DNA of 64,000 nucleotides from Bacteroidota bacterium (GTDB lineage Bacteria; Bacteroidota; Ignavibacteria; UBA10030; UBA8401). Shown here in pieces: positions 5,467-34,114 of the stretch. The notes below the pieces were generated by a model. That model did no database searches, was not told the DNA's origin, and saw nothing but the letters and a program-made list of their open reading frames with translations. A program made the position numbers and the translations under genes. Position 1 is the first letter of the stretch; every line of letters begins with the position of its first letter. The stretch covers positions 1 to 64,000 of the forward strand of contig JAUXTU010000110.1 of NCBI GenBank assembly GCA_030679145.1. Reading direction: 5' to 3'.

Positions 5467-6126
5467 ATGAAAAAAATGATGTTTGTCTTGATGTTTGCAG
5501 TTATTCCAATGACTGCGCAAACTCCTTACGATTCATTGTATCTGAAAAGTTCTCTCTATAAAAACCGTACTGCAATGTTTGCTCAAACCAACGCATCATC
5601 TGCTAAAATAGTTTTTTTCGGTAACTCAATTACATCTGGCGGTGATTGGAATACGTTACTTGACCGCGACAGCATTGTCAATCAAGGAATTGTCGGCGAC
5701 AACACTGTTGGGATGCTTCATCGTTTGCGATATGTCTATCAATTGCAGCCAAAACTCTGTTTTGTTATGGCCGGGATCAATGATATTTATGCGGACGCAC
5801 CGGTAGAGACGATATTTAGCAACTATAAAAAGATCATCGATACGTTGCGTTCTAAAAATATTACACTGATCATTCAATCCACGCTTCATGTCAATCCAAA
5901 ATGGAAGCGAACGGAAGTGAAAAACCCTGAAGTAAAAAAACTCAATGATCTTCTCTCGGAATATTGTGCAGTCAATAAAATCATGTTTGTTGATGTCAAT
6001 GCTAAACTTTCCACGAATGGAGTTTTGAATGATCGATACACGACTGACGGTGTTCATTTATCACCGGCAGCATATGGGGCGTGGAGTAAACTGATTGTTC
6101 CGATCTTGCGGGAGTTTGGTTTGTAA
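5467..6126 (+). CDS. secreted SGNH/GDSL hydrolase
   Basis: 219 residues with a signal peptide (1-18). SGNH blocks are in order: block I 'FFGNSIT' (GNS in place of GDS), block II Gly in 'GIVGDNTVG', block III 'MAGINDIY' (GxND) and block V 'DGVHLSPAAYG' with the Asp/His pair. It is probably a periplasmic or surface esterase or carbohydrate deacetylase; the substrate is not deducible. It lies 18 bases after the dienelactone hydrolase gene and likely shares its mRNA. Confidence 0.85.
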   Translation: MKKMMFVLMFAVIPMTAQTPYDSLYLKSSLYKNRTAMFAQTNASSAKIVFFGNSITSGGDWNTLLDRDSIVNQGIVGDNTVGMLHRLRYVYQLQPKLCFVMAGINDIYADAPVETIFSNYKKIIDTLRSKNITLIIQSTLHVNPKWKRTEVKNPEVKKLNDLLSEYCAVNKIMFVDVNAKLSTNGVLNDRYTTDGVHLSPAAYGAWSKLIVPILREFGL

Positions 6127-6150
6127 TCAGTCTCATTTTCAGTATATTTA
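6120..6150 (+). promoter_or_regulatory. putative Bacteroidota-type promoter for the FKBP gene
   Basis: TTTG at 6120-6123 is followed after 19 bases by TATATTTA at 6143-6150. This fits the TTTG-N19-TAnnTTT(G) layout described for the primary sigma factor of Bacteroidota. It overlaps the end of the preceding gene and lies 39 bases upstream of ATG 6189. The call rests on the pattern only. Confidence 0.4.
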
Positions 6151-6188
6151 CACGTCATTTTTCTATTTCTATAACGAGGAGATGTTTC

Positions 6189-6932
6189 ATGAAACGAACG
6201 CTGTTTATCTGTGCAATAATTGTTGTAAGTGTGGGAATGTTAATTGCTCAACAACCGTCAAAACCTGCGGCAAAATCGTCAACTAAAAAAACAACCGTGA
6301 AAATGAAGACCGTTCAGGAGAAGATGAGTTATTTGAGCGGATTCGATCTGGGACAAAAAGTAATCGCCAATGTGAAAACAAATAATTTTCCGTTAACAAC
6401 AGCAAGTTTCATTAATGGGTTGAGAGATGCGTTGGAAGAGAAGGCGAATATCCTTTCTCCGGAAGAGATACAGCAGGTGGTAACGGAGTTCCAAAAGAGC
6501 CAGCCGCAGCCTGCAAATGATAAGCAACAGCAGGAAGCGATTGCAAAGGTTAAAAAAGAGGGAGAAGATTTTCTCGTTGTAAATAAATTGAAGGACAGCG
6601 TGAAGACTACTGCAAGCGGACTTCAATATAAAATTTTGCGAGAAGGAACAGGAAAAGCCCCCGCTGAAACAAGTACCGTTACTGTTCATTATCGCGGCCG
6701 GCTAATCAATGGTGTTGTGTTCGATGAATCGTACGGACGGGGTGAACCGACAACGTTTGCGCTGAATCAAGTGATCAGAGGATGGACAGAAGGACTTCAA
6801 TTGATGACAGAAGGAGCGAAGTTCGAATTCTATATTCCAAACCAACTTGCGTACGGGGAACGTTCTGCAGGACAATTAATCGCTCCCGGCTCGACATTAA
6901 TTTTTGAAGTTGAATTGCTTTCGGTAAAATGA
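6189..6932 (+). CDS. FKBP-type peptidyl-prolyl cis-trans isomerase (Mip/FkpA-like)
   Basis: 247 residues: signal peptide (1-21), a lysine-rich spacer, an N-terminal helical dimerisation region (about 35-115, starting 'MSYLSGFDLGQKV') and a C-terminal FKBP domain (about 150-247) with 'VTVHYRGRLINGVVFDESY', 'GWTEGLQLM' and 'PGSTLIFEVELL'. It is expected to act as a periplasmic folding catalyst and chaperone. A GAGGAG lies upstream of the ATG, and a terminator follows immediately. Confidence 0.92.
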   Translation: MKRTLFICAIIVVSVGMLIAQQPSKPAAKSSTKKTTVKMKTVQEKMSYLSGFDLGQKVIANVKTNNFPLTTASFINGLRDALEEKANILSPEEIQQVVTEFQKSQPQPANDKQQQEAIAKVKKEGEDFLVVNKLKDSVKTTASGLQYKILREGTGKAPAETSTVTVHYRGRLINGVVFDESYGRGEPTTFALNQVIRGWTEGLQLMTEGAKFEFYIPNQLAYGERSAGQLIAPGSTLIFEVELLSVK

Positions 6933-6957
6933 TTTCGTAAAAGATTTATGGGATTAA

Positions 6958-7018
6958 AAGGTGGATATTTATCCGCCTTTTTTATTGCTATACCTCGTGA
7001 GAAAAAATCAGTATATTT
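6958..7018 (+). promoter_or_regulatory. terminator plus promoter-like module, copy 1
   Basis: A hairpin (aggtggat/atccgcct, one G-T pair) with a T-run ends the FKBP unit at about 6985. It runs directly into a 35-base stretch ending in TATATTT (7012-7018). This whole stretch recurs at 8897-8960 almost base for base ('tttttattgctatacctcg' is shared exactly). In both places it separates two co-oriented genes, so it probably combines termination with initiation of the next unit. Confidence 0.6.
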
Positions 7019-7193
7019 ACAGTACCAAAACAAAATAGCAGTGATGTGTCTGATTTACGAGTGAAAACGCCAGATATCGGTGAGAGTTCTCATTGACCTT
7101 TCATGTAATAAGAATTATTTTAAGTTAAACACCGAAACTAATTAGAAAGAATTTGATAGACCGCATAGAATGTTATTTGTAATGGAGAAAAGC

Positions 7194-8870
7194 ATGTGCA
7201 AGGTTAATTCTTCACATCGTATTCAGTTTTATCTAATGTTATCTATAATTATTGCCGCTGCAAAAATTCTCCCTCAAGAATCATCGAAAGATTTTATAAA
7301 AACAAATATTCATCATCAAATGCTCAATCAGAATCATGAGTTACTACAACACGACGAAATACAATATCCAATTAAAAAATATTCGTTTGCCGATTCACTT
7401 ATTCAACATCGCTTGTTGTTGAATAAAAAGTTGCAAATGGAAAAATTACAAAATGTACTACGTCCTCAATCAAACTGGTATATTGTTGATACAGCAATTG
7501 TTCGTACCGAATATGATACTTCAAGGTATATATATACCTATGATGAAAGCGGGGATATTACTGAAGTGGTAGTTCAAAATTGGAAAAATAAAAAATGGAC
7601 GAACACAAGTCATTCTTTATACACCTACGATACAAATAGAAATCGTTTATCATCTTTTATAGAGGATTGTTATAATGATATTTGGTATATCCTCTTTCGC
7701 CAAACTTATACCTATGATATAAACGGTAATCAGCTATCATTATTGGGTGAAGCATGGTCAGAGAATAAGTGGATAAATAGCGGCCGTGATTCCTATACTT
7801 ACGATGGAAATGAAAATCAGTTATCGTATTTGAGTGAAGTTTGGAAGACTGATAAATGGGTGAACACCTATCACAGGCTCTATACCTACGATGCGAACGA
7901 CAATATGCTGTCAAAACTGACCGAAGATTGGGCAACTAGTGAGTGGTATCCCCGCTTTCGCGAAACCTATACCTACGATGTTAACGGGAATCAATTATCA
8001 TATTTGACTGTAGCGTGGACAAATAATTTGTGGCTAAACGACACTCGTGATACCTATACATACGATACTAACGGAAATCAGTTATCATATTTAAATGAAG
8101 ACTGGTACGATGGTGAATGGGTGAAAGACAATCGCTATACCTACACATACGATTCAATGGAACATCTTATATCAGTTATTCCCGAAGATTGGTGGAATGA
8201 TCAGTGGTTTAACAACTCTCGTACGATTTATACCTACGATTCAAAGGGAAATCTTCTATTGGAATTACACGAAGCATTAGATGATACTAATTGGGTTAAC
8301 AGTTATCGCCTTACTTACACCTATGATTCAAACGGAAATCAATTATCATACATGAACGAATCATGGATAAATAATCAATGGTGGGGTACCGCACGCTTTA
8401 ATTTTAAATATTTTGCTGATCAATTGTGGTCAGAAGGTACTTACGAACAAAGGGAGCCATGGATAACTTTTTCATGGAGACCAGTAAATATATACTTTAA
8501 TTTACGTGACAACGCCGGCAATATTTTTGGCTATACTGGTTGTAATATAAGTTTGATTTATAAATTAATTGTAACAGAAATGAGCAAGAACGAGGAAGTA
8601 ATAGCTAAAGAATATTCAGTATCTCAGAATTATCCGAATCCATTCAACCCAACAACAACAATCAACTACATTTTTCCAAAAGCTGGGAATGTAATGTTGA
8701 AAGTATATGATGTGTTAGGCAGAGAAGTTGCAACATTAGTAGACGAATATAAAGGAATAGGTAGTTATTCTGTAGAATTTGATGCGTCAAAACTTTCCAG
8801 CGGAATGTACTTCTACAAACTGACATCAGATAACTTTAGCAAGGTAAAGAAAATGATGTTGGTGAAATAA
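7194..8870 (+). CDS. T9SS-secreted protein with ten 29-residue YTYD repeats
   Basis: About 558 residues. A signal-like hydrophobic segment (about 8-30) and a linker precede ten tandem repeats of 29 residues (about 114-405), consensus 'YTYDxNGNQLSYLxExW' followed by 'xNxxWxNxxRxT'. The pattern recalls YD/RHS-type beta-hairpin repeats but has its own period and paired Trp positions. A type IX sorting domain closes the protein (about 475-558; 'SQNYPNPFNPTTTINY', 'KVKKMMLVK'). It is presumably a surface-exposed or released repeat protein, perhaps adhesive or carbohydrate-binding (inference). ATG 7194 is preferred over 7170 because GGAG lies 6 bases upstream. Confidence 0.85.
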   Translation: MCKVNSSHRIQFYLMLSIIIAAAKILPQESSKDFIKTNIHHQMLNQNHELLQHDEIQYPIKKYSFADSLIQHRLLLNKKLQMEKLQNVLRPQSNWYIVDTAIVRTEYDTSRYIYTYDESGDITEVVVQNWKNKKWTNTSHSLYTYDTNRNRLSSFIEDCYNDIWYILFRQTYTYDINGNQLSLLGEAWSENKWINSGRDSYTYDGNENQLSYLSEVWKTDKWVNTYHRLYTYDANDNMLSKLTEDWATSEWYPRFRETYTYDVNGNQLSYLTVAWTNNLWLNDTRDTYTYDTNGNQLSYLNEDWYDGEWVKDNRYTYTYDSMEHLISVIPEDWWNDQWFNNSRTIYTYDSKGNLLLELHEALDDTNWVNSYRLTYTYDSNGNQLSYMNESWINNQWWGTARFNFKYFADQLWSEGTYEQREPWITFSWRPVNIYFNLRDNAGNIFGYTGCNISLIYKLIVTEMSKNEEVIAKEYSVSQNYPNPFNPTTTINYIFPKAGNVMLKVYDVLGREVATLVDEYKGIGSYSVEFDASKLSSGMYFYKLTSDNFSKVKKMMLVK

Positions 8871-27615: not shown

Positions 27616-27855
27616 TTATTTTCCGTTGAGCCATTGTTGAGCGCGTGAGATCGCTTCGTCGTGAGGTACGGTTTTTCCGGCAACGAAGTCGGATTCACCT
27701 TCGGCGACAGCCATTTTTTGATTTTCGGAAAGTGTATAGGAAGTTTCAACAATATTCTGTTTATCAATAAGATTTTGAATTGTTGACAGAAATGTCGGAT
27801 CTTCAATTGAAGAGATTTTATTGATAAGATAATTTTGCAATTCCAGTGTGCTCAT
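27616..27855 (-). CDS. antitoxin-like small protein without a toxin partner
   Basis: 79 residues: a helical N-terminus ('MSTLELQNYLINKISSIED') and the C-terminal 'VAEGESDFVAGKTVPHDEA'-type motif with 'QQWLNGK'. This matches small addiction-module antitoxins of Bacteroidota that normally precede a RelE/ParE toxin. No toxin frame is found downstream (27370-27615), so this is an orphan. It is divergent from the dGTPase gene with 55 bases between starts. ATG 27855 is preferred over the longer 27921 frame, which would overlap that gene. Confidence 0.65.
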   Translation of the reverse strand: MSTLELQNYLINKISSIEDPTFLSTIQNLIDKQNIVETSYTLSENQKMAVAEGESDFVAGKTVPHDEAISRAQQWLNGK

Positions 27856-27910
27856 AAATGTTCCATACTTCATCTGTAATGTAATATTGATCAAAGAAAA
27901 TAGCAACCAT

Positions 27911-29306: not shown

Positions 29307-30749
29307 ATGAAAGTGATAATGGAATCTGAAAAAATAAAACTGCAATACGGCGACATCGTCGAACTTACAATCGAATCAACCGGATCCGAAGGGAAAAGTA
29401 TCGCGCGGTTGGACGGGCTCGTCGTTTTTGTTGAAGGAGCAGTAGCGGGTGACGTAGTGAAAGCGAAGATCGGAAAATCAAAGAAGAAATTTGCTGAAGC
29501 AAAAGTTATTGAAGTGATCAAACCATCTCCGCAGCGGATCGAAGCGCGCTGCAAATATTTCGGCATCTGCGGCGGATGCAAGTGGCAGCATGTGGAATAC
29601 AAAGCACAATTAGCATTCAAACATCAACAGGTGGTTGATGCGCTTGAGCGGATCGGCGGATTCAAAGATTTGAATATTCTGCCAATCGTTGGTTCGGAAG
29701 ATGTTTTTTATTATCGGAACAAATTGGACTTTTCGTTCAGTGAAAAGCCATGGTTGACTGAAAAAGATATGGAACTTCAAAAAGATGTAAATGTCCCGAA
29801 TCTTGCATTGGGCTTTCACGTTCCTCAGCGATGGGATAAAGTGTTGGATATCGACGAATGTTTCCTGCAGTCAGAACTGAGTACGGGAATCTTAAACGCT
29901 GTTCGCAAATTTGCGCTGGAGAACAATATCCCGGCATTTGAACCGGAAACAGAGAGCGGATATTTCCGCAATCTGGTGATCCGTGAAGGGAAAAATTCTG
30001 GCGACGTGATGGTGAATATCGTATCGTTTGAAGATTCACCGGAAGTAATGGAAAAATTGAGCAAGGAACTGCAAAAACAATTCCCCGAAATTACGACCAT
30101 CATCAATAACGTGACGAAAAGAAAATCGCAGGTTGCTGTCGGAGAATATGAAAAAGTGTATTACGGCGACGGCATTATTCATGACAAACTTGGGAAATAT
30201 AATTTTCAGATCTCGGCAAATTCATTCTTCCAGACGAACACGAAGCAGGCAGAGAAATTATATTCAATCGCAAAAGAATTTGCAGCGTTGAAACCGACCG
30301 ATGTGGTGTACGATCTCTATTGCGGAACAGGAAGCATCGGGATTTATATCTCCGATTCCGTAAAAGAAGTGATTGGAATTGAATTGGTGGAAAGCTCGAT
30401 CCAAAATGCAAAGAAGAATGCAGAATTGAACGGAATTGAGAATTGTGAATTCATTGCCGGCGATCTAAAAGATCTGTTGACCAAAGATAATGCGTGGAGA
30501 GAACAATACGCACATCCAAATATTATCATCGTAGATCCGCCGCGCAGTGGAATGCATCCAAAAGCGGTGGAAGAGTTAGGGAAGATGCAGGTTCCGTCGA
30601 TAGTGTATGTCAGCTGCAATCCCGCAACGCTTGCGCGTGATCTGCAACTGCTCTCGCCGTTTGGTTATGTGATCGAAAAAGTTCAGCCGGTAGATATGTT
30701 TCCGCACACCTATCATATTGAGTGCATAGCGAAAGTTGTGTTACGGTAA
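29307..30749 (+). CDS. rlmD: 23S rRNA (uracil-5)-methyltransferase, RlmD/RumA family
   Basis: 480 residues. An N-terminal TRAM domain (about 8-65) is followed by the iron-sulfur cysteine set 'CKYFGICGGCKWQH', then a Rossmann methyltransferase with 'DLYCGTGSIGIY', 'DPPRSGMHPKA' and the catalytic 'YVSCNPATLARDL'. The RlmD or RlmCD choice cannot be made from sequence alone. The start may be ATG 29307 or 29319. It is convergent with the barrel gene at 30765, 15 bases away. Confidence 0.9.
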   Translation: MKVIMESEKIKLQYGDIVELTIESTGSEGKSIARLDGLVVFVEGAVAGDVVKAKIGKSKKKFAEAKVIEVIKPSPQRIEARCKYFGICGGCKWQHVEYKAQLAFKHQQVVDALERIGGFKDLNILPIVGSEDVFYYRNKLDFSFSEKPWLTEKDMELQKDVNVPNLALGFHVPQRWDKVLDIDECFLQSELSTGILNAVRKFALENNIPAFEPETESGYFRNLVIREGKNSGDVMVNIVSFEDSPEVMEKLSKELQKQFPEITTIINNVTKRKSQVAVGEYEKVYYGDGIIHDKLGKYNFQISANSFFQTNTKQAEKLYSIAKEFAALKPTDVVYDLYCGTGSIGIYISDSVKEVIGIELVESSIQNAKKNAELNGIENCEFIAGDLKDLLTKDNAWREQYAHPNIIIVDPPRSGMHPKAVEELGKMQVPSIVYVSCNPATLARDLQLLSPFGYVIEKVQPVDMFPHTYHIECIAKVVLR

Positions 30750-30764
30750 TTGTCTCAAACGGAA

Positions 30765-31493
30765 TTACAGGATAAATGACAATCCCAAATTTAAAAATGC
30801 GCAGGATAACGTCAACTCCAAAGAGTTGACTTGCTTCGTCTTACTGTTCTCGAATTCGTAGAATCTTAACCCTCTGTATCCCCCTTCAAAATGTGCAGCT
30901 ATTGCCGAACTCAATTTTGGACTGATAATAATGCCGCATTGATATCCCAAAGCATTTCCGGTAAATGAATTTGAAAACCGCGATGTTCCCCCGTTTGTTG
31001 CAGCGATAGTATAATCCTCGTCACAGTTCCCCAGTGCAACGACCATTTCGGCAAAACATTGTATATCCTGTTTAGGAGTTGTAAATGCAGCCCCAACCGA
31101 AAACGGATAGATAGTATATCGTTCAATGATTGTAGTCTGCACGGTACCAATGACCGTTCCATCAATACCCGTTTCCTTAGCGGTCACATCGTATTGATAG
31201 CCAGTCATCATTTTACCGAATCTCAGGTGCAATGCTTTGTAATCATTCGCAGACAATAGAGTGAAAGTGGCGATCATTCCCTTCAAAGAAGTTACATCTT
31301 TGTCCTTTACCGAGAATTCGTTTGAACCTTTCAGTCGATGTTCGTCGCGGTTTTGAATGCCGGGGATATCAGTATTCCAATTATATGTAACAGTAAATCT
31401 GAAATTGAACTTTGCAACGGAATCAGCATCTATTTGCGAGAATACCAACTCGTGAATCGAAAAAAGAAAAAAACAAACCAAGAATAATTTCAT
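30765..31493 (-). CDS. outer-membrane beta-barrel-like protein, module copy 2
   Basis: 242 residues with a signal peptide ending near 'VFSQ', alternating hydrophobic strands and a C-terminal 'LGLSFIL'. The shared layout with the 31988-32740 product (including 'YTIYPFSVG' against 'YSLYPFSIG') shows a paralogue. It is probably an eight-stranded outer-membrane barrel; its function is unknown. It lies 6 bases after its partner lipoprotein gene and is the last gene of the minus-strand unit. Confidence 0.7.
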   Translation of the reverse strand: MKLFLVCFFLFSIHELVFSQIDADSVAKFNFRFTVTYNWNTDIPGIQNRDEHRLKGSNEFSVKDKDVTSLKGMIATFTLLSANDYKALHLRFGKMMTGYQYDVTAKETGIDGTVIGTVQTTIIERYTIYPFSVGAAFTTPKQDIQCFAEMVVALGNCDEDYTIAATNGGTSRFSNSFTGNALGYQCGIIISPKLSSAIAAHFEGGYRGLRFYEFENSKTKQVNSLELTLSCAFLNLGLSFIL

Positions 31494-31499
31494 CGGAAT

Positions 31500-31871
31500 C
31501 TATTTTTTTATTGCAGCAATTCGTTTAAATGTTTCCTCGGAATTGCCGACCTGCAGTTCTATATAATATAGTCCGGAGGGATTTTTATTGAAAGGTCTCC
31601 AATTTATTCGGAATTTTCCTGCAGAATGATTGTTTTTCTCCACAAGCAGCTCCACCAGTTCATTGAACCGGTCGTAAATAGCAACACGAACGCGCGGTCC
31701 TGACTGAGAGCTGAAGTTCGGCACGCCGTAATCGATCACGGTCGTGTCCGTGAACGGGTTTGGGAAATTTTGGCTTAATTCAAATGATTCAGGAGGAGGA
31801 TTATCGACCGCTTGCTCACCACATGAAGCGAGGAAAAATCCTATAATTATTGCAATGATGATGTTTCTCAT
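31500..31871 (-). CDS. small lipoprotein with a T9SS-sorting/FlgD-like Ig domain, module copy 2
   Basis: 123 residues: lipobox 'FFLASC' (about 11-17), then almost nothing but one Ig-like domain beginning 'SQNFPNPFTDTTVIDYGVP' and ending 'SGLYYIELQVG...FKRIAAIKK'. This is the fold and motif of the C-terminal sorting domain, here as the whole mature protein. A lipoprotein would go to the outer membrane rather than through T9SS, so the domain probably has a structural role. It is paralogous to 32750-33151. Confidence 0.75.
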   Translation of the reverse strand: MRNIIIAIIIGFFLASCGEQAVDNPPPESFELSQNFPNPFTDTTVIDYGVPNFSSQSGPRVRVAIYDRFNELVELLVEKNNHSAGKFRINWRPFNKNPSGLYYIELQVGNSEETFKRIAAIKK

Positions 31872-31987
31872 AGCGAAATTACGGCTTATTTTGATGCACG
31901 ATTCTATCTAAAATTTTTACGCTACTTTTCATCACTTTTTTTTGTGTGGAGGAGAATATTTGTCAGTGGAAGTAGAATCGTTTTACC

Positions 31988-32740
31988 TTAGAATCCGTAC
32001 GACAATCCTGCAGAAAGATTTATTCCATTGTAGTCCATTTCGACATTCTTTATCGAAACACCTTTCGCATCTCTAAATTCATCTATAACGATATACCGAT
32101 AACCAATATCAAGTGTTGCTCCCAGTGTTCGTTCAATCGGAATCACTTGCTGCAGGTTGATTCGAAAACCATATCCTTCTCCTTCGTACGTCGTTTCGGA
32201 ATTTGTATATCCTGGAACCGAAGTTTCCTGCGTGATCCGAGCAAGGGCATAAATGAATGCGATCTCTGCTTTTGCAATTGTTTTAAATAATACTGAACCA
32301 GTTCCAATAGAAAAAGGATATAATGAATAGCGGTATTTTGCTGTTGATTCAACCGCATCAATCACAGTGGGGCTTTGTGGCTGCGTGACATTGGTAAGAA
32401 ACGAAAATGAACGCAACGATGTCAGCATTTCAGCACGAAGCGTGATAAAGTTCGACAAATTTTTTGGACGATAGGAAAGCCATATTCCCCACTGCCCTGG
32501 TCTTGAAATAGGAAATTCATCGGTATCAAACATAGAATTATTAGTTTCAATCTGGTTATTAATTCTTTCGGGACTGATGAACGCAATCCCGCCAAAAATT
32601 CCAACACTTAGCATTGGGCGGGGAACTATAGCGAAAATCGTATCACGTTCTGTTGAGGATGATGAAAAGACATCATCATCTTGTGAAAATAGCGGAGTGA
32701 TTGAACAACACACAAGAACAGTAAAGAATATTTTTTTCAT
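31988..32740 (-). CDS. outer-membrane beta-barrel-like protein, module copy 1
   Basis: 250 residues with a signal peptide ('MKKIFFTVLVCCSITPLFS') and repeated amphipathic strands, ending in 'LSAGLSYGF' with the terminal Phe typical of barrel proteins inserted by BamA. It lies 9 bases downstream of its lipoprotein partner. Confidence 0.72.
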   Translation of the reverse strand: MKKIFFTVLVCCSITPLFSQDDDVFSSSSTERDTIFAIVPRPMLSVGIFGGIAFISPERINNQIETNNSMFDTDEFPISRPGQWGIWLSYRPKNLSNFITLRAEMLTSLRSFSFLTNVTQPQSPTVIDAVESTAKYRYSLYPFSIGTGSVLFKTIAKAEIAFIYALARITQETSVPGYTNSETTYEGEGYGFRINLQQVIPIERTLGATLDIGYRYIVIDEFRDAKGVSIKNVEMDYNGINLSAGLSYGF

Positions 32741-32749
32741 AAAAGTCCT

Positions 32750-33151
32750 CTATTTCTTTATTGCTAACACACGAATAATTACTGTCTGGGGTGATAATCC
32801 CTTCATTTCAATGGTATATGTCCCCGAAGGAACTTGAATTCCGCGTTTATTTTCTCCATCCCATTTTGTTGAATAATTGTTTGGCGCCATATTGCCGCTT
32901 GCCAACACTCGTAATTCTTGTCGGAAGTTATCATACACAATTACTGACACAAATGAGTTACTTCCTCCGGTGGCAGGAACACCATAATCTATTGTTGTTG
33001 TATCGGAAAAAGGATTCGGATAGTTTTGTTTCAAATAAAATGCCGGCGGTGCTGTTCCGTTTCCAGTTTGCGGACCGGTTGTTGGGTCAATGTTACAGGA
33101 AAAAAAAAGAAAAAATGATGAGCATAGAGAAAATAAAAAGAAGTTTTTCAT
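32750..33151 (-). CDS. small lipoprotein with a T9SS-sorting/FlgD-like Ig domain, module copy 1
   Basis: 133 residues: lipobox 'LFFSC' after a hydrophobic stretch, a Gly/Thr/Pro spacer, then the Ig-like domain 'KQNYPNPFSDTTTIDYGVP' to 'PQTVIIRVLAIKK'. It is the paralogue of 31500-31871 and forms the same gene pair with a following barrel. Confidence 0.75.
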   Translation of the reverse strand: MKNFFLFSLCSSFFLFFSCNIDPTTGPQTGNGTAPPAFYLKQNYPNPFSDTTTIDYGVPATGGSNSFVSVIVYDNFRQELRVLASGNMAPNNYSTKWDGENKRGIQVPSGTYTIEMKGLSPQTVIIRVLAIKK

Positions 33152-33190: not shown

Positions 33191-34114
33191 TTACTTTGAA
33201 AGCAACCACCGTTCATAGAAATTTACAATTCGGACTTCATACTCTTTTTCCCCAACATCATGAACATCGCTGTGTTTTGCAGAAGCTACGAACCATAATT
33301 CTTTCGGTTCGTTCGCAGCAATGAATAATTCCTGGCTGTATTGATATTTGATGAAGTGATCTTCAATGCCATGAATGAAAAATATCGGAACGTGAATTTT
33401 TGAAACTGCTGAAAGCGGAGAAACTTGTCGGTGTTTGAATTGAGCTATTGCTTCGCTTCGCTTCATTGAAATGTTCCGGAGAAAATGCCACGGCAATCGC
33501 AACAATCGTTTTTGATAATCAACCGTCACCTGCCTGAGTGTTGCGAACGATGCTTCTGAAACAATTGCAGAAATTCTCGGTTCAATACTTGCTGCTTGGA
33601 GTGCAATTGCTGCTCCCATCGATGTACCGAATACGCCTATTTTTCCTATGAATATATTTTTTTCCTTGTCCAGCGAAAGCAAATAATCGATCGCTTTTTG
33701 AACATCGAATTTTTCATGGAAACCGTACGTGCAATACCGTCCGCCGCTTTCTCCATGTGCTCGTGAATCGTAAATCAACACATTGAAATGATGGTCGTGC
33801 CAGACTTTTGCGAGCAACAGTCCGCTCATTTTATTGTCCGCTACGCCATGAAGATAAATGATCGTCGCTTTTGGTTCTTCTGCGGGGATGAACCATGCAC
33901 TCAATTGTGATTCTCCGTCGCTTGCGGTGAATCGAACATCCTCAAATGTTAATCCAAGCTGCGATGGTGAAATAGGTAATCCTTTGTGTTGGTAGAATTG
34001 TTCGCCGCGTCGCCGTGGATTCAAAAGCATGATTGGACCGATGACAAACACCAATGCGGAACAGGTAATCAAAAAAGCTAGGAGGGTCAATATAATTATA
34101 AGGAGGATGCTCAT
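33191..34114 (-). CDS. membrane-anchored alpha/beta hydrolase
   Basis: 307 residues. An N-terminal membrane anchor (about 4-28) precedes a serine hydrolase domain: 'YLHGVADNK', nucleophile elbow 'GTSMGAA', acid 'GIEDHFI' and base His in 'SAKHSD'. It is similar to YqkD/BEM46-type hydrolases; the substrate is unknown. It starts 5 bases after the upstream aminotransferase-like gene, so the two are co-transcribed. Confidence 0.85.
   Translation of the reverse strand: MSILLIIILTLLAFLITCSALVFVIGPIMLLNPRRRGEQFYQHKGLPISPSQLGLTFEDVRFTASDGESQLSAWFIPAEEPKATIIYLHGVADNKMSGLLLAKVWHDHHFNVLIYDSRAHGESGGRYCTYGFHEKFDVQKAIDYLLSLDKEKNIFIGKIGVFGTSMGAAIALQAASIEPRISAIVSEASFATLRQVTVDYQKRLLRLPWHFLRNISMKRSEAIAQFKHRQVSPLSAVSKIHVPIFFIHGIEDHFIKYQYSQELFIAANEPKELWFVASAKHSDVHDVGEKEYEVRIVNFYERWLLSK

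Follow-up and report, generated by a model that had tools for sequence, protein, structure and literature searches.

The window, a stretch of 64,000 nucleotides from an Ignavibacteria genome, contains two adjacent cassettes on its minus strand, each made up of a gene for a small lipoprotein (LP) followed by a gene for a predicted 8-stranded outer-membrane barrel. We propose, with a probability of roughly 0.5, that each pair forms a two-subunit outer-membrane module, in which a lipoprotein derived from a Type IX secretion system (T9SS) sorting domain is devoted to a small surface barrel as its partner and would be in contact with it. According to this proposal, a type A sorting domain with a FlgD-type Ig fold would have been cut loose from its cargo in an ancestor of the lineage and would have gained a lipobox, and the freed domain would then have become a lipid-anchored partner dedicated to the barrel. 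The lipid would anchor the lipoprotein to the outer membrane on the periplasmic side, where the lipoprotein may hold, cap or help assemble the barrel by way of the conserved periplasmic turns of the latter, whilst the variable outer tips of the barrel may bind a ligand in the environment, a surface or a phage. One transcript would carry both genes, which would stay together and be replaced jointly at one chromosomal site.

Organisation of the cassettes

The four open reading frames run from 33151 down to 30765 in the order lipoprotein, barrel, lipoprotein, barrel, the place and order given in a preliminary description of this DNA. LP1 (32750..33151) is a 133-residue type 1 lipoprotein with the lipobox FFSC (Cys19), the mature part of which consists of a short linker and an Ig domain resembling those of FlgD and of T9SS C-terminal domains (CTDs), and barrel1 (31988..32740) is a 250-residue type 1 barrel with a signal peptide of the signal peptidase I type (…FSQ) and a C-terminal Phe. 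LP2 (31500..31871), a 123-residue type 2 lipoprotein with the lipobox LASC, likewise has a short linker and a CTD-like Ig domain in its mature part, and is followed by the divergent type 2 barrel2 (30765..31493; 242 residues). In both lipoproteins the lipobox leads through a linker of 15-20 residues into an Ig-like domain which extends to the C-terminus. The reported spacing of 6-9 bases within the pairs was also borne out, as 9 nt separate the LP1 stop from the barrel1 start (32741..32749), including an AGGA that resembles a ribosome-binding site, and 6 nt separate LP2 from barrel2 (31494..31499); the tight spacing of LP1 and barrel1 would be compatible with coupled translation. The cassettes are separated by 116 nt (31872..31987); no terminator-like site was found in this spacer, and promoter-like matches around it are not above chance. 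The cassettes are flanked by genes resembling those for a 23S/tRNA methyltransferase (29307-30749) and an alpha/beta-hydrolase (33191-34114), both named by sequence appearance rather than by family search.

Pairwise alignment gives 37% identity for LP1 and LP2 (E 2e-21) and 23% over 128 residues for the two barrels (E 2e-10). The arrangement had been read as a tandem duplication; instead, the cassettes represent two old paralogous types, which relatives carry one at a time or in reversed order. Each of type 1 (LP1/barrel1) and type 2 (LP2/barrel2) is also present elsewhere, for the most part without the other; in the genome of the window (G000) type 1 precedes type 2, and the order is reversed in G002 and G006. 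A recent tandem duplication was rejected because each type has closer relatives in other genomes.

Pairing in related genomes

Among 60 relatives, 18 have homologues of the barrels, and across the class 21 of 391 genomes do; the carriers belong to the family of the window and to one genus of another family; a sample of the phylum yielded no further barrel carriers. The named relatives with the module are metagenome-assembled genomes of Ignavibacteriae or Bacteroidetes. When the alignment of type 1 barrels was used as the query, nine loci were returned, all of them among those already found. A lipoprotein gene lies directly upstream of every barrel with upstream DNA available (23/23, in 20 genomes, all of which have a homologue of LP1), at a distance of 1-16 nt in the 19 pairs measured. 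Pairs of this kind, which the preliminary description had proposed looking for elsewhere in Ignavibacteria, are thus not peculiar to this genome. A profile search with the lipoproteins in 382 genomes recovered the 23 paired lipoproteins at 124-189 bits, and the next listed matches at 100 bits or less; those listed below this gap are mostly sorting domains that end long proteins, and the sole unpaired lipoprotein among the matches listed, which comprise the best ones only so that a distant lipoprotein could be missed, is a copy of LP1 in G006 that is cut by a contig end.

One genome scored as lacking the module, G015, is the twenty-first carrier of a barrel homologue in the class and has only a C-terminal fragment of 37 residues from a type 2-like barrel, located at the end of contig C85 (L116:4250-4363). 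Owing to this fragment, calls of module absence in fragmented genomes are to be read as lower bounds.

The pairing bears on a reading in which the two genes belong to one envelope operon and perform separate jobs, the barrel being a small protein of the cell surface and the lipoprotein an unrelated periplasmic one, so that linkage explains the pattern. Linkage would indeed give co-replacement and correlated distances without contact, and a fused structural model, described below, left the two proteins undocked. However, the one-to-one association is strict over two families, it extends to unrelated neighbourhoods in genus g18 (L056, L062, L065), and neither gene was found alone, and we regard separate jobs as improbable.

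Relationship of the lipoproteins to T9SS sorting domains

Sorting domains are normally taken as proof of T9SS cargo, and a genuine T9SS is present in this genome (SprA, 1035 bits; PorU, 975 bits). About 150 sorting-domain-like matches to the LP1 domain in the 3.8 Mb genome G000 indicate a large T9SS cargo set for the lineage. The lipoproteins resemble type A sorting domains (TIGR04183/PF18962) in their Ig-like fold class, in a PNPF start and a G-x-Y motif kept in all 21 lipoproteins compared, and in a partial motif E tail, and the two clearly have a common origin.

The preliminary description equated the lipoproteins with sorting domains, which is not what the comparisons indicate. None of the 21 lipoproteins passes the type A cut-offs, the best being LP2 (22.4 vs 23 bits for TIGR04183 of NCBIfam; 25.4 vs 27 bits for PF18962, Por_Secre_tail, of Pfam), whereas TIGR04183 is passed at 39-54 bits by 10/10 control cargo domains, taken from proteins sampled from stretches of this genome. 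Nor are the lipoproteins of type B, as they fall far below the cut-off of TIGR04131. In a tree built on only 92 columns, with controls chosen by PNP and a basic tail, the 21 lipoproteins lie on one side of a branch and 45 sorting domains of this genome lie apart (support 100/100). The same sets differ in their motifs: PNPF-x-D occurs in 21/21 lipoproteins and 0/45 controls, PNPF-N in 0/21 and 45/45, a G-x-Y-x-[ILV]-E-[LM]-type motif in 21/21 and 0/45, and the Gly of motif C in 2/21 and 45/45, having been lost from the lipoproteins. For motif E, the strict form KK-x-x-x-x-K was found in none of the 21 lipoproteins and R-[IVLQ]-x-x-x-K-[KQEN] in 19, a contrast that is partly circular, since the controls were picked partly by a KK tail; the typical C-terminus of a type A domain is KKMxLxK, as against R-I-x-A-x-K-[KQ] in the lipoproteins. 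Genuine sorting domains form the C-terminal domain of larger secreted cargo, unlike the lipoproteins, which carry a lipobox and no second domain and thus stand alone, lipidated and without cargo. By a home-made rule, all 28 classifiable cargo signal peptides are of the signal peptidase I type and none has a lipobox (12 further ones are cut and 5 unclassified).

On these comparisons of sequence, we conclude that the LP domain descends from sorting domains and appears to be one no longer. The failed cut-offs and the separate clade mean that the contradiction seen in the preliminary description, that of a sorting domain on a lipoprotein without cargo, largely dissolves. In this lineage, a sorting domain has most likely been turned into a structural lipoprotein, and annotation by motif only would therefore mislabel the LP family.

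The possibility that the domain is a working T9SS signal, by which the lipoprotein is exported through SprA or binds T9SS parts such as PorV, has in its favour the genuine T9SS of the genome, the universal PNPF and G-x-Y, the motif E-like tail in 19/21 and the distance of less than 2 bits between LP2 and both type A cut-offs. It is opposed by the profile results, the motif C Gly, the loss of the motif E KK doublet in most lipoproteins and the lack of a lipobox in classifiable cargo; moreover, removal of the CTD as in cargo would leave just a short lipopeptide. We consider such a signal very unlikely. The lysines of motif E have been stressed for T9SS secretion (PMC10202324). Recognition of the lipoprotein by the T9SS through its partly kept motif E tail seems unlikely from its sequence, and nothing was found in support of the earlier link of the pair to the T9SS machinery, the tail R-[IV]-x-A-x-K-[KQ] itself being present. 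It is equally doubtful that the motif E tail of such a domesticated secretion tag, a free-standing subunit matched one-to-one with the barrel, still docks T9SS parts and lets the T9SS position or load the barrel.

The Ig domain is also akin to that of FlgD (PF13860; PDB 3osv) in fold and in weak sequence similarity. LP1 scores above the FlgD_ig cut-off of Pfam (36.3 vs 27 bits; 5.7e-9), 16/21 lipoproteins match this family, and Foldseek aligns the two at 27% over 82 columns. In contrast to FlgD, the lipoprotein is lipidated, is not flagellar and is without the remaining parts of that protein.

Predicted fold of the barrels and probable placement of the lipoprotein

The AlphaFold2 model of barrel1 has 8 strands, with pLDDT 92-98 across the barrel; a helix lies between the first two strands, and strands 3-6 are long and protruding. 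Barrel2, folded alone from a 22-row alignment, also has 8 strands (mean pLDDT 84.5, pTM 0.78). LP1, as modelled within a read-through of LP1 and barrel1, is an all-beta Ig-type domain with pLDDT of about 82-94. The predicted folds thus agree with the preliminary description of an Ig-domain lipoprotein beside an outer-membrane barrel, both folds being recovered. Foldseek matched the models to OmpA, OmpW, OmpX, Ail and FlgD (barrel1 to OmpA/OmpW/OmpX, barrel2 to Ail/OmpW/OmpA), with TM-scores (target) of about 0.5-0.6 to OmpA, OmpX and Ail. The barrels therefore share 8 strands and a structural match with the OmpA/OmpX/Ail/OmpW-type barrels of the PF13505 clan, but differ from them in having an obligate lipoprotein gene partner and in lacking a family assignment above cut-off. 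Neither Pfam nor NCBIfam gave such an assignment (barrel1 vs PF13505, 13.6 vs 28.7 bits; PF13505 was touched weakly by 3/19 barrels), NCBIfam gave no match of either window barrel to PorP/SprF or another named T9SS barrel family, and a sequence search of solved structures with the barrels returned chance antibody matches only. Barrel1 ends in YGF, with an aromatic last residue, and barrel2 in IL.

In most barrels the residue right after the predicted cleavage site of signal peptidase I is a Gln (…AQ, …SQ), which is the pattern of the Bacteroidetes Q-rule. The paper on this rule restricts it to Bacteroidetes, leaving out the wider FCB group (PMC5837995).

LP1 and barrel1 are in frame across a TAG stop, and the read-through (TAG as Q) was folded as one chain with AlphaFold2 from a 44-row unpaired alignment. 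In this prediction for the fused type 1 pair, complex prediction having been proposed in the preliminary description, both domains are well folded, but the lipoprotein was not placed on the barrel (pTM 0.62, disordered link). As the alignment was unpaired, the missing docking is weak evidence either way. Our best guess is that the lipoprotein acts as an anchor or adaptor for its partner barrel.

On which side of the membrane it would do so is indicated by the lipoprotein N-termini and by the pattern of conservation in the barrels. By pattern, a lipobox [SGA]C is present in all lipoproteins with an available N-terminus. K-(D/E)2 after the Cys is a signal for surface export of lipoproteins (PMC5080379); neither this nor Q-A-(D/E)2 was seen beside the Cys in any of the mature lipoprotein N-termini inspected, although Ignavibacteria may use another export signal. 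Among the type 1 barrels, with orientation assumed from known 8-stranded barrels, periplasmic turn T1 (entropy 0.55) and the strand halves on the same side (0.62-1.18) are conserved, and the highest variability is seen in beta4 (1.90) and beta5 (1.75), in the outer half of each. The absence of the published export signal, together with conserved periplasmic turns and variable outer strand ends in type 1 barrels, places the lipoprotein probably in the periplasm, and the variable tips suggest that the barrel contacts something outside. These same observations argue against a surface-exposed lipoprotein which docks on the outer tips of the barrel, so that the barrel would be a pillar and the lipoprotein the extracellular part. 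This arrangement, suggested by analogy with the docking of the surface lipoprotein BamH on the BamG barrel or of SusD on SusC, would fit the long protruding strands 3-6, a lone acidic residue about +3/+4 after the Cys that is common among the lipoproteins, and the surface lipoprotein-barrel pairs that are a standing theme in the phylum (PMC12611786); we judge it unlikely.

Comparison with known barrel-lipoprotein systems

A periplasmic lipoprotein dedicated to a small barrel, as we propose, has relatives in concept. SusD docks on SusC, and both SusC-SusD and BamG-BamH combine an outer-membrane barrel with a dedicated lipoprotein; the pairs described here differ in that both partners are small and have other folds. 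In the Bacteroidota BAM complex, the barrel BamG has 14 strands and is of the FadL type, and its partner BamH is a large, surface-located protein (PMC12611786). A sorting-domain-type protein also adjoins a barrel gene where a type B CTD substrate is encoded beside a PorP/SprF barrel (PMC10202324), but the present barrels match no PorP/SprF family, and the lipoprotein is neither of type B nor attached to cargo. No description of a pair of an 8-stranded barrel and a sorting-domain-derived lipoprotein was found in searches of an open-access library. A barrel with a dedicated lipoprotein is a known theme, its combination of an 8-stranded barrel with a lipoprotein of this descent probably being previously undescribed. 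At about 370 residues in all, the obligate pair offers a simple test case for a lipoprotein serving an 8-stranded barrel.

Joint divergence and apparent exchange of the pairs

Distances among the lipoproteins follow those among the barrels (r 0.87, n=23 pairs, 0/2000 permutations), also once the distance of the flanking hydrolase is removed (r 0.91, n=13 genomes, 0/2000 permutations). Lipoproteins and barrels thus diverge together, which indicates that they are inherited as a unit; joint divergence and co-replacement could follow from gene linkage alone and do not imply contact. Both genes are under purifying selection, as dN/dS is 0.08-0.33 where estimable (the G000/G001 barrel comparison, which was misregistered, is left out).

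Between G003 and G000 the flanking hydrolase is 93% identical and the barrel only 29%. In G016/G021 the opposite is seen, with dS of about 0.10 in both genes of the pair vs 0.42 in the hydrolase and a DNA identity that is modestly higher at the pair than around it. From these sequence comparisons, the pair is apparently replaced as a cassette at one fixed chromosomal site, and the exchange of intact pairs suggests that lipoprotein and barrel must match. The same data could be read as a diversifying surface receptor or antigen locus, where exchange of the whole pair changes what phages or partners see, and the reversed order of types between G000 and G002/G006 would suit such a locus. This is a tentative possibility: it concerns why the pair varies and is compatible with the two-subunit module, identity increases only modestly in G016/G021, and the pair has neither a relative among viral contigs nor a match to a defence family. 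A phage origin and a defence system (no PADLOC match) were rejected on the latter grounds.

Between loci L054 and L055, at about 5950-7340, DNA identity is 95-98% over the lipoprotein-barrel pair vs roughly 88-94% on either side, which is possibly the trace of a recent exchange. In G004 and G005 (L048:3806-6554, L057:7997-10745) the same locus holds two extra envelope genes beside the lipoprotein, one for a 376-residue protein that has a signal peptide and one for a lipoprotein of roughly 537 residues; the locus may accept a variety of outer-membrane genes. Judged by eye, the open reading frame at 27616-27873 of the window is small and antitoxin-like, with no evident partner gene there; its homologue in G005 (L048:12920-13437) is followed by a RelE/ParE-like open reading frame, which suggests that the two make up a toxin-antitoxin pair.
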